Shown here: in pieces, positions 31,470 to 35,704 of the stretch
Numbering within the stretch: position 1 is the stretch's first letter
Layout: every line of letters starts with the position of its first letter
Source: Alphaproteobacteria bacterium
GTDB taxonomy: Bacteria; Pseudomonadota; Alphaproteobacteria; Caedimonadales; UBA9215
Reading direction: 5' to 3'
Length of the DNA: 39,872 nt
Assembly (NCBI GenBank): GCA_024281375.1
Contig: JAJSAD010000026.1
Span: 1-39,872 of the forward strand
Translations under genes and position numbers: made by a program
The notes under the pieces: generated by a model
Seen by the model: the letters and a program-made list of their open reading frames with translations, nothing else
What the model was told of the DNA's origin: nothing
Database searches by the model: none

Positions 31470-31653
31470 ATGATTTTGTTTTTGTTGAAAATAAGGGGTA
31501 AAATCGATTCAATCTATCTTTTTTCAAGGAGAATGACAATGGGGTAACTTTGTTTTTCTTATTTTAAGGGGGATGTGCTCTTGCCAGGGGGCTGAAAATA
31601 GGTCAAAATTATTATAAAATATAGCTATTTTATTTGTGGAGGCATGTCCAATT

Positions 31654-32283
31654 ATGGCAGAAGACGAAAAAAAAGATATTGATAACGCCGAAGAAGTCAA
31701 AAAAGAAGATGCTAAAGGTGATGACGCCGAGGAAAAAAAAGAAGGCGGCGACGCTGAAAATGGCAAAGACGCTGAAGGAGGTGAAGAGGGAGATAAGAAA
31801 AAATCCGGTGGGATGATGAAAATCATTCTCTTTGCGGGTGTTCCGGTTCTTCTTATCATTATTATTGCAGTAGTCCTATTCTTTACATCTTTTGGACGGG
31901 GGCTGATTGGTCTTGAGACCGATGAAAATCTTGAAGAAGAAGTCGTTGAGGAAGCTGTGATGGAGCTTCCGGAACACATTAGTTATTATGATATGCCAGA
32001 GCTTTTGGTGAACATTCAATCGAGTACATCAAAGCGTAAGCCTTACTTGCGTTTGGCGGTGAAATTTGAACTTCATGATCCTGAAGCTATGAAAACTCTT
32101 GATATTATTAAGCCTCGCATTATTGATTCTTTTCAAATCTATTTGCGTGAATTGCGGGTGGATGACTTAGAGGGGTCGGCTGGTTCCCAGCGTTTGAAAG
32201 AAGAGCTCTTAAAACGGGTTAATGCTGTTGCGGCTCCCCTTAAGATCGTTGATGTTTTGTTTCAAGTTTTTGTGATCCAATAG
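31654..32283 (+). CDS. fliL: Flagellar basal-body protein FliL
   Basis: The ATG at 31654 gives 209 residues; GGAGG lies 11 nt upstream, slightly far, and a GTG at 31636 is an alternative. FliL surrounds the stator units and supports motor torque. Residues 1-50 are an extremely acidic, Lys/Glu-rich cytoplasmic stretch, residues about 53-77 a single membrane helix (MMKIILFAGVPVLLIIIIAV), and the C-terminal part the periplasmic FliL domain (YYDMPELLVNI, then PYLRLAVKFEL). The acidic tail is longer than in most FliL proteins. It heads the run fliL-fliM-DUF6468-motE-nirK. Confidence 0.92.
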   Translation: MAEDEKKDIDNAEEVKKEDAKGDDAEEKKEGGDAENGKDAEGGEEGDKKKSGGMMKIILFAGVPVLLIIIIAVVLFFTSFGRGLIGLETDENLEEEVVEEAVMELPEHISYYDMPELLVNIQSSTSKRKPYLRLAVKFELHDPEAMKTLDIIKPRIIDSFQIYLRELRVDDLEGSAGSQRLKEELLKRVNAVAAPLKIVDVLFQVFVIQ

Positions 32284-32324
32284 TTTTGTAAAATTTTAAG
32301 AGCGTTAGACAGGGAAAGTAAAAA

Positions 32325-33407
32325 ATGAGTGACGCAGCAGAAGAGGAATTAACAGACGAAGAGCTTGCTGCTCAATGGGCTGACGGTATTGATGATGAAG
32401 ACGATACTGAACCAGAGCGGGTTTTAAGTCAGGATGAAATTGACAACCTCTTAGGGGGTGCTGGTGGGGACGATAAAGAAACCAGCGGCATTAATTTTCT
32501 GATTAATAATAGCAAGCTTTCCCATGAACGTCTTCCGATGCTCGAGGTTGTTTTTGATCGTCTTGTAAAAAATCTGACGACCTCTTTGCGCAACTTCACT
32601 TCTTCTCCTGTTGATCTTAACGTTGACGAGATGACGTCTGTGCGTTTTGGAGATTATCTAGATACGGTCTCTTTGCCGGCTCTTTTAACGGTTTTTAAAG
32701 CCGAAGAATGGGAGACCCTTTCTCTTCTTTATGTAGAAACGGGTCTTGTTTATGCTCTTGTTGATACTCTCTTGGGAGGAAAAAATGGGGGGGAAATTAA
32801 AGTTGAAGGGCGTCCTTTTACCTCCATTGAACGTGGTCTTGTTAAAGAACTTGTTGATATTATCCTGAAAGACTTCACCGAAGCTTTTTCTGCTATTTCT
32901 CCTGTGACTTTCAGTTATGATCGTATGGAAACAACGCCCCGTTTTGCATCGATCGTGCGCCCCGTTGACGCAGCCATTTTGGTTAATGTTGGTATTTTAA
33001 TGGGAGGACGAGGCGGTAATGTCCAATTCTGTATTCCTTATGCCTCCATTGAACCTGTACGTGATCAAATTGTTCAAATGTTTATGGGAGAAAAATCCGG
33101 TGGCGATAATATGTGGTCTGGTCACTTGCGCCATGAGGTTTGGGATGCTCAGGTTGATGTGGATACCATTCTTGGAGAAGTCGAAGTAACGTTAGACGAC
33201 ATTTTAAGTTGGGAAGTTGGATCACAGCTTGTGCTCCGTACGAAGCCACAATCTGTTGTTAAAGCGTGTGTCGGCGGGTTTAAAATTTTGGAAGGAAAAG
33301 TGGGGCGCCGTGAAGGGTTCGTCTCTTTGAGAATTGAACACAATCTTATCAGTGAAAAGCTGAAACAAATATATGACACCCAACAAGAAAAGAAAACAGC
33401 AGAATAA
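32325..33407 (+). CDS. fliM: Flagellar switch protein FliM
   Basis: This 360-residue C-ring protein receives phospho-CheY and sets rotation direction. An acidic N-terminal lead (1-35) comes before the CheY-binding helix LSQDEIDNLLGG. The middle domain is CheC-like (about 60-250) and the C-terminus is a SpoA/FliN-type domain (about 270-345, VEVTLDDILSWEVGSQLVL). The presence of the CheY-binding motif means that a CheY should exist; the lone receiver at 17966 is one candidate. FliN, usually nearby, is not in the window. A GGGAAAG element precedes the ATG. Confidence 0.96.
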   Translation: MSDAAEEELTDEELAAQWADGIDDEDDTEPERVLSQDEIDNLLGGAGGDDKETSGINFLINNSKLSHERLPMLEVVFDRLVKNLTTSLRNFTSSPVDLNVDEMTSVRFGDYLDTVSLPALLTVFKAEEWETLSLLYVETGLVYALVDTLLGGKNGGEIKVEGRPFTSIERGLVKELVDIILKDFTEAFSAISPVTFSYDRMETTPRFASIVRPVDAAILVNVGILMGGRGGNVQFCIPYASIEPVRDQIVQMFMGEKSGGDNMWSGHLRHEVWDAQVDVDTILGEVEVTLDDILSWEVGSQLVLRTKPQSVVKACVGGFKILEGKVGRREGFVSLRIEHNLISEKLKQIYDTQQEKKTAE

Positions 33408-33416
33408 GGAGCCTCT

Positions 33417-33869
33417 ATGAGTTTTGATATTATTTTAGATATGGTTGTTATTACGTGCTTGGCGGCGACTATTGCTTTTGCGGTGCGGCTTAATAAAAAG
33501 CTATCAACAATTTATAAAAGTCGTGAAGACCTTCAAGAGTTTCTTAATCAGTTTACAGCTTCCATGGAAAAAGCGGATGCCGGTGTCAAAGACCTCAAAG
33601 GAATTGGAGAGTCTGTCTTTAAAGCCGCTCAAGATCAAATGAAAATTGCACAAGTTCTTAAAGATGACCTTGCCTTTTTAAATGAGCGAGGGGAAGATTT
33701 AGCAGGACGTCTTGACAGCAGTATTAGTATTGCAAGGCAGCTTCATAAAGACTTGGGAGACAATGCTGGGGGGGGTGGTAGCAGTAGAACTGCCGCTCTT
33801 TCTTCAGTACAAACGCGCAATGAGGATGGAGAGCCCGATCTCGTACGGCATCTTCAAAATGTACGGTAA
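33417..33869 (+). CDS. DUF6468-type flagellar-locus protein
   Basis: The protein has 150 residues and AAGGAG upstream of its ATG, 9 nt after fliM. One N-terminal membrane helix (about 3-22, IILDMVVITCLAATIAFAVR) is followed by a charged, heptad-like helical region, and the C-terminus is Ser/Gly-rich and disordered. In alphaproteobacteria a small protein of this shape (DUF6468) sits between fliM and motE, and this gene has the same place. A role in motor or stator assembly is inferred from position only. Confidence 0.7.
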   Translation: MSFDIILDMVVITCLAATIAFAVRLNKKLSTIYKSREDLQEFLNQFTASMEKADAGVKDLKGIGESVFKAAQDQMKIAQVLKDDLAFLNERGEDLAGRLDSSISIARQLHKDLGDNAGGGGSSRTAALSSVQTRNEDGEPDLVRHLQNVR

Positions 33870-33881
33870 AGGATTAAGGCG

Positions 33882-34685
33882 ATGAACTCTCTTTTAAAGG
33901 CTTACCAAATGAATGTGGCACTTACAGCGGGTGTTCCTTCAGGGAAAGCAGACATTTTATCATCCAAGGATATGTTGACGACCCTAAAAGAAAAACTGAG
34001 CATCCTTTTTATGTTTAAGCTCCGACTTGTGCCTCTTGTTATCTTTTTTGCAGTCCTCGTTCTGGGGGCGCGCGTGACAACACTCTTTACCCATATGGGA
34101 GAAAAAGATCTTTTTAAAAAAGCCCATGCATCTGAGATTAAAAATAATAAAAACAAAATGATAGGTGAGTTAGATGCTCTTCCAGTTAAAGAAGAAAAAG
34201 GAAAGAAAAGCTTAGAAGCTCTTGATGAATTTGACCCTTTTAATATGACCGCCGACCAATACCGAGCTCTTAATGGTATTCTTCAGAAAAAGGACCAGCT
34301 TTCTGATCGTGAACGGTCTATTTCTGAAAAAGAACAGGTACTCCAAGCACTTATCAAGAAAATGGATGAAAAAATTGTTGAGCTTAATCAGACAAAAGTT
34401 GAGCTTCAAAAGCTTATTGGTAAAATTGATGAGGAAGAAAATGCAAACACCAAACGTCTCGTAAAAATGACGGAAGCGATGAAAGCCCCCCAGGCTGCCA
34501 AAGTTCTTGAAGGTATAGAATTTCCCATTTTATTAGAGATCATGGAAACCATGAGAGAGAAGAAGGCCTCCGCTATTTTAGCGGCCATGGAGGTTGAAAA
34601 GGCGGGTTATCTTATGACCGCTATGTCAAAACGTCGCAAGATTTTCAAAAAGAATAACCCTAGCAAATCCATTATGAAGGGGTAG
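33882..34685 (+). CDS. motE: MotE-like flagellar chaperone protein
   Basis: The 267-residue protein has a membrane helix at about 48-68 (LVPLVIFFAVLVLGARV), a long charged coiled coil (about 130-190) and a C-terminal MgtE_N-like bundle (TKRLVKMTEAMKAPQAAKVL to the end). That layout matches MotE, which in rhizobia helps the periplasmic stator protein MotC fold and keeps motors running. No signal peptide is needed because the helix anchors it. AGGATTAAGG precedes the ATG, 12 nt after the previous stop. A longer N-terminal cytoplasmic lead (about 45 residues) than usual is present. Confidence 0.8.
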   Translation: MNSLLKAYQMNVALTAGVPSGKADILSSKDMLTTLKEKLSILFMFKLRLVPLVIFFAVLVLGARVTTLFTHMGEKDLFKKAHASEIKNNKNKMIGELDALPVKEEKGKKSLEALDEFDPFNMTADQYRALNGILQKKDQLSDRERSISEKEQVLQALIKKMDEKIVELNQTKVELQKLIGKIDEEENANTKRLVKMTEAMKAPQAAKVLEGIEFPILLEIMETMREKKASAILAAMEVEKAGYLMTAMSKRRKIFKKNNPSKSIMKG

Positions 34686-34693
34686 GAAAAGTT

Positions 34694-35704
34694 ATGAAAT
34701 TAAATCTCAAAAAAACACTCGCTCTCTTTTTGCTCATCTCTGTGTTCATTGGTTTTTCTGTAGCACAAAGTCTTGCGAAGCCAGTGAATATTAGTCGATC
34801 TGCTACGGATGTCGGAAAGCCTCTTCAATGCACCGGTGTTCCCGTAAAGAGAGAGATTTTTCTAGAGGTTAAGGAAGTAGACGGCTATGTTGATGGTAAA
34901 ACAGTTTATAAATATTGGACATTTAATGGGAAAATCCCTGGACCGTTTCTACGCGTTTGCGAAGGAGATAATGTTGAGGTTCGCCTAAAAAGTCATAAAG
35001 ACAATGAAATACTGCACTCTGTGGATTTTCATGCCGTAACGGGGCCGGGGGGCGGTGCTTCTTTTACGAAAGATCTTGAACCCGGTCAGGAGAAGTCTTT
35101 TACATTTAAAGCGTTGAAGCCAGGTGTGTTTGTGTACCATTGTGCAACACCTCCTGTTGCTCAGCATATTTCAAAGGGGCAGTATGGACTCATTCTTGTG
35201 CAACCAACAGAAGGCTTGCCTCCCGTTGATAGAGAATTTTATGTGATGCAAGGAGAGCTCTTTACAAAGGAAGCTGCCCCTGAAAAAGTTGACTTTGACT
35301 ATGATCGTCTCGTGAATGAGCATCCAACTTATATTGTTTTTAATGGGGCAGCTAAAGCTCTAACAGGTAAGAATGCTCTGAAAGCGAAAGTAGGGGAGAC
35401 CATTAGAATTTATTTTGGCGTTGGGGGCCCGAATATGATTTCTTCATTTCATGTGATTGGTGAGATTTTCGATCGTGTTTATACTTTAGGGTCTCTTTCT
35501 TCTCCCCCAGTAAAAGATGTTCAAACGATTCTTGTTCCAGCAGGGGGAAGTGCTGTTGTTGACTTTAAATTAGAAGTCCCCGGAACCTTTATCCTTGTTG
35601 ATCATGCTTTATCTCGATTGGAAAAAGGGCTCCTTGGACACCTTATTGTTGAAGGACCCGAGAATCCTAAAATCTACAAGAAAGGTATTGGGGGAAATAC
35701 CTAG
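34694..35704 (+). CDS. Copper nitrite reductase, AniA/NirK class, axial Met replaced by Gln
   Basis: This 336-residue exported two-cupredoxin protein resembles Neisseria AniA closely (GGPNMISSFHVIGEIFD, LVPAGGSAVVDF). Such enzymes reduce nitrite to nitric oxide in the periplasm. A Sec signal ends near residue 29 (SLA before KP). Type-2 copper ligands His113, His149 and His304 and catalytic Asp111 and His253 are all present. Type-1 ligands His108, Cys150 and His158 are present, but the axial Met position is Gln163 (codon CAG, in HISKGQYGL; AniA has HIANGMYGL). Gln at that place occurs in stellacyanin and lowers redox potential. It starts 8 nt after motE, on the same strand, so it appears to end the flagellar operon. 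No nor, nap or nirV gene is near. Confidence 0.9.
   Translation: MKLNLKKTLALFLLISVFIGFSVAQSLAKPVNISRSATDVGKPLQCTGVPVKREIFLEVKEVDGYVDGKTVYKYWTFNGKIPGPFLRVCEGDNVEVRLKSHKDNEILHSVDFHAVTGPGGGASFTKDLEPGQEKSFTFKALKPGVFVYHCATPPVAQHISKGQYGLILVQPTEGLPPVDREFYVMQGELFTKEAAPEKVDFDYDRLVNEHPTYIVFNGAAKALTGKNALKAKVGETIRIYFGVGGPNMISSFHVIGEIFDRVYTLGSLSSPPVKDVQTILVPAGGSAVVDFKLEVPGTFILVDHALSRLEKGLLGHLIVEGPENPKIYKKGIGGNT

Follow-up and report, generated by a model that had tools for sequence, protein, structure and literature searches.

Natural glutamine ligation of type-1 copper in copper nitrite reductases of the NirK class is already known from TsNirK of Thermus scotoductus (PDB 6hbe), which was described in 2019 as having a His2-Cys-Gln type-1 site and reducing nitrite (PMC6400189). 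The same ligand has also been engineered into class-I NirKs, as in M144Q of AxNiR (PDB 2bp8) and Met150Gln of AcNiR (Kataoka 2003, as cited in PMC4059628). The corresponding M148Q exchange in rusticyanin lowers the potential from 667 to 563 mV (by about 104 mV), the potential of stellacyanin is about 265 mV, and the loss of activity in the Met148Leu form of RpNiR is moderate (about 40% at pH 5.5). Two further groups of described enzymes, all with axial Met, are relevant here: the cores of HdNIR from Hyphomicrobium denitrificans (2dv6/6tfd) and of a Bradyrhizobium NirK (6the), and AniA of Neisseria gonorrhoeae (1kbv/5ue6). The nirK gene reported here lies on a 39,872-nucleotide stretch of DNA (positions 1 to 39,872 of contig JAJSAD010000026.1, assembly GCA_024281375.1; the whole stretch is referred to as the window) from an alphaproteobacterium of the order Caedimonadales, and alignment places a glutamine, Gln163, at the axial position of its type-1 copper site.

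The assignment to the NirK class, as proposed by the initial annotation, is confirmed by a TIGR02376 score of 310.9 bits against the curated cut-off of 296.3 bits for this family, and the best PDB matches of the protein are HdNIR, the Bradyrhizobium core and AniA. The reading frame is intact, encodes 336 residues and includes its stop codon within the end coordinate (Table 1); residues 1 to about 28 form a signal-like hydrophobic segment, and the product is probably a secreted, two-domain trimer of the HdNIR-core/AniA branch. By sequence, the gene is a NirK-class copper nitrite reductase, for which reduction of nitrite to nitric oxide (NO) and a homotrimeric assembly are predicted. The AlphaFold2 model, built from 45 aligned sequences, reaches a mean pLDDT of 88.8, with residues 131–170 at 95–98, and shows the two-cupredoxin fold; in Foldseek it is matched to 6the with a TMt of 0.98 and an rmsd of 0.9, and it can also be superposed on 2dv6.

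When the ligand loops are aligned, HISKGQYGL of the window protein stands over HITNGMYGL of HdNIR, and residue 163 is Gln where the aligned structures and homologues carry the axial Met. All nine of the other active-site positions are kept, comprising the type-1 ligands His108, Cys150 and His158, the type-2 ligands His113, His149 and His304, and the catalytic residues Asp111, His253 and Ile255; the reading made at first, of a single exchange in an otherwise complete site, therefore stands. A definition of the type-1 site that insists on axial Met, the ligand of nearly all NirKs, would leave this protein out; Met is not obligatory for NirK membership, since TsNirK carries Gln. Two residues ahead of Gln163, Lys161 (35174–35176) is unique among the 84 aligned NirKs, the others having Asn, Ser or Ala.

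The distribution of Gln163 was surveyed in relatives of the window genome and in a genome collection of 84,980 species, from which the 80 best loci were taken to give an alignment of 84 rows including the window. Axial Met is found in all 83 homologues (about 51–63% identical); two rows of a first alignment with Gly and Leu were distant multicopper proteins and are not counted among the 83. The order contains only one further NirK, that of genome G003, which is 54% identical and has axial Met, and two genomes of the same genus (85–89% complete) gave no NirK match. Motif scans of the class and phylum, which sample the NirK family in genomes rather than metagenomes, returned the same picture: when 385 class genomes were scanned at codon level for a motif with Gln, the window alone was matched, and a scan left open at the axial position in 398 Pseudomonadota genomes gave 61 plausible sites besides four unrelated matches. 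Of these sites, 59 have Met, and the remaining two have Leu, in a protein of the HCH type, and the Gln of the window. Conservation of Gln163 in a clade, which had been proposed as a check, was thus not found among the relatives, the order, the 80 best loci or the class and phylum genomes; within the sampled genomes Gln163 is a singleton, although a rare clade with Gln may exist beyond them. The initial annotation held that Met in close homologues would make the glutamine an isolated variant or an error, and the first of these descriptions fits. The second is improbable: CAG lies two substitutions away from ATG, more than one miscalled base could account for.

In the genome bin, the genes narGHJI, followed by molybdenum-cofactor genes, occupy positions 235–6813 of contig C57, and the Molydop_binding match is the only one among ten genomes of the order, which suggests that nitrate respiration is a lineage-specific gain. 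Family searches of the bin returned no cupredoxin of the azurin/pseudoazurin type (PF00127) and no separate NorB, the one COX1-family protein being of a kind present in every genome of the order. Candidate electron carriers include a membrane-anchored c-type cytochrome on contig C102 and two small c-type cytochromes, each with a single haem, that are encoded behind a porin gene on contig C26 (6282–8342). The second of this pair (121 residues) was matched in none of the nine remaining genomes of the order and might act as donor to NirK. The tetranucleotide profiles of C57 and C26 correlate with that of the window at 0.87 and 0.93 (0.95 between the two halves of the window itself), which supports a common origin without proving it.

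On this basis we consider it probable, if not secure, that the gene encodes a working nitrite reductase with a lowered type-1 potential. NarGHJI of the same cell would supply the nitrite, and electrons would probably reach NirK from a small cytochrome c of the periplasm and not from a cupredoxin. With Gln163 as the axial ligand, the type-1 site would be of the stellacyanin-like His2-Cys-Gln kind, and its potential would probably lie about 0.1 V below that of the axial-Met form, by analogy with rusticyanin; uptake from high-potential donors would then become harder and transfer to the type-2 copper more favorable. The intact type-2 copper would reduce nitrite to NO, at which the chain from nitrate would end. 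This account is supported by the family score, the retained residues, the fit of the model, the activity of TsNirK, the rusticyanin shift, the nar genes and the cytochromes c.

Several observations weigh against it. The orientation of Gln163 toward the copper, for which structure prediction had been recommended, is suggested by backbone equivalence in a copper-free model, so that the prediction bears out the fold and leaves the ligation presumptive. The bin comprises 104 contigs at 97.6% completeness and 2.5% contamination, and both the absences and the linkage of C57 and C26 are correspondingly uncertain. Gln163, being unique, has none of the conservation that would indicate selection. Moreover, of 107 near-invariant columns the window protein departs from the consensus in 11, a higher count than in any other of the 84 rows. 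A protein that changes this often would be expected to differ at about one active-site residue in ten, and one has indeed changed. Neutral drift consequently stays a live rival, whereby Gln was fixed under neutral or relaxed selection in a fast-evolving lineage and the product is an ordinary, perhaps slower, NirK. In a tree with the 83 homologues, no end branch is as long as that of the window protein (0.9, where the median is 0.1), and the axial residue is the most dispensable type-1 ligand, as the moderate effect of Met148Leu in RpNiR illustrates. However, the path from ATG to CAG requires two base changes by way of a Leu or Lys intermediate, Gln has precedents as an axial ligand, and the other nine active-site residues are all kept; fixation by drift is a serious possibility that we nevertheless hold to be doubtful. 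The initial proposal of a redox-tuned variant is accordingly plausible from rusticyanin and TsNirK, and tempered by the unusual pace at which this sequence has evolved.

In the same tree, the placement of the window protein has no support, and a sister relationship with the NirK of G003 is not resolved, despite a Cys89 (34958–34960) that replaces a near-invariant Arg in these two proteins only. The window protein also has Cys46 (34829–34831), and that of G003 likewise has a Cys near position 46; the two cysteines possibly form a disulfide peculiar to the order.

The nirK gene follows a run of four genes (fliL, fliM, a DUF6468 gene and a motE-like gene), and the gap between the stop of the motE-like gene and the nirK start is just 8 bases, so that nirK is probably co-transcribed with them. 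Signals from a promoter and terminator scan around nirK were close to those of shuffled sequences. In a congener (G001) the same four genes occur with no nirK after them; therefore, either G001 has lost the gene or nirK came to this site by gain or relocation. Its GC content (0.42, and 0.32 at third positions) matches that of its neighbors, and any gain therefore does not look recent. In G003, nirK lies within a region (G003:C1, 2495–12641) where it is flanked by flagellin, FliD-like and FliS-like genes on one side and by a gene for CusA-like metal efflux on the other, so that both nirK copies of the order adjoin flagellar genes; the FliM match of that genome (G003:C1:172847–173776) contains one in-frame TAA, and this flagellar gene is possibly decaying.

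Table 1. Positions in the window of nirK, its active-site residues and the genes upstream
Feature	Coordinates	Strand	Basis
nirK, two-domain copper nitrite reductase	34694..35704	+	TIGR02376, PDB matches, AlphaFold2/Foldseek
HSVDFH: type-1 ligand His108, catalytic Asp111, type-2 ligand His113	35015..35032	+	sequence, alignment
HCATPPVAQH: type-2 ligand His149, type-1 ligands Cys150 and His158	35138..35167	+	sequence, alignment
Codon CAG, Gln163, type-1 copper axial-ligand position	35180..35182	+	sequence; alignment, Met in 83/83 NirK homologues
HVI: catalytic His253 and Ile255	35450..35458	+	sequence, alignment
His304, third type-2 copper ligand	35603..35605	+	sequence, alignment
fliL, fliM, DUF6468 gene and motE-like gene, directly upstream of nirK	31636..34685	+	Pfam, coordinates

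This location in a flagellar operon, instead of a denitrification cluster, raises the thought that the gene is heading for loss or serves another role, such as copper handling or NO signaling, with nitrite reduction impaired. The high number of deviations and the failure to find a NorB in the bin for NO removal point in the same direction; however, the intact frame, the complete type-2 site, the confidently predicted fold and the presence of narGHJI make this unlikely. A sequencing or assembly error, for which a single fragmented assembly could be blamed, is very improbable given two base changes in one codon, an undamaged frame and a neighboring Lys161 that is equally unusual, as in a divergent gene. 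The earlier suggestion of a different reaction is rejected as unsupported, the type-2 site being intact and nitrite being available from NarGHJI. As regards the favored account of a functional enzyme, a stronger version, in which Gln163 arose as an adaptation of this two-domain enzyme to a cytochrome c donor of low potential, within a nitrate-to-NO chain that lacks an NO reductase, and represents an independent second natural origin of the stellacyanin-like site in NirK, is put forward tentatively and with little confidence.

Comparison with the known systems defines what is new here. The HdNIR and Bradyrhizobium cores are closest both in sequence (about 55% identity) and in fold, and have the same ligand spacing and catalytic Asp, His and Ile; they differ in the axial Met and in being part of, or excised from, three- or four-domain proteins, whereas the window protein has no extra domain. 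AniA, at about 48–50% identity, shares the two-domain core and the Cys-x7-His-x4-axial loop. AxNiR M144Q and AcNiR Met150Gln carry the same substitution by engineering in class I, whereas that of the window is natural and belongs to the AniA/HdNIR branch. Plasmid pTHEOS01 of Thermus oshimai yielded no match to align as a TsNirK relative, and the comparison is based on the published TsNirK (PMC6400189). The natural axial Gln in a NirK core, judged by alignment for the window, is common to both proteins. TsNirK differs in having a third cupredoxin domain at the C-terminus, a Ser that takes the place of the catalytic Asp in the sensing loop, Val for Ile and a ligand loop of greater length (Cys115, His125 and Gln130), whereas the window protein lacks the extra domain, retains Asp111 and Ile255, and has its ligands at Cys150, His158 and Gln163. 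As far as sequence and alignment tell, the novelty is hence a Gln in a two-domain NirK of the AniA/HdNIR type with the catalytic Asp kept, no third domain and a shorter ligand loop. If ligation by Gln is confirmed, this would be the second, apparently independent, natural Gln-ligated type-1 copper in NirK, and axial Met could no longer be assumed when NirK sequences are filtered. Because several features of TsNirK differ at once, the window protein, with its catalytic Asp and no fused domain, would also show, with fewer confounding differences, how donor choice and electron gating are set by the axial ligand in a natural enzyme.
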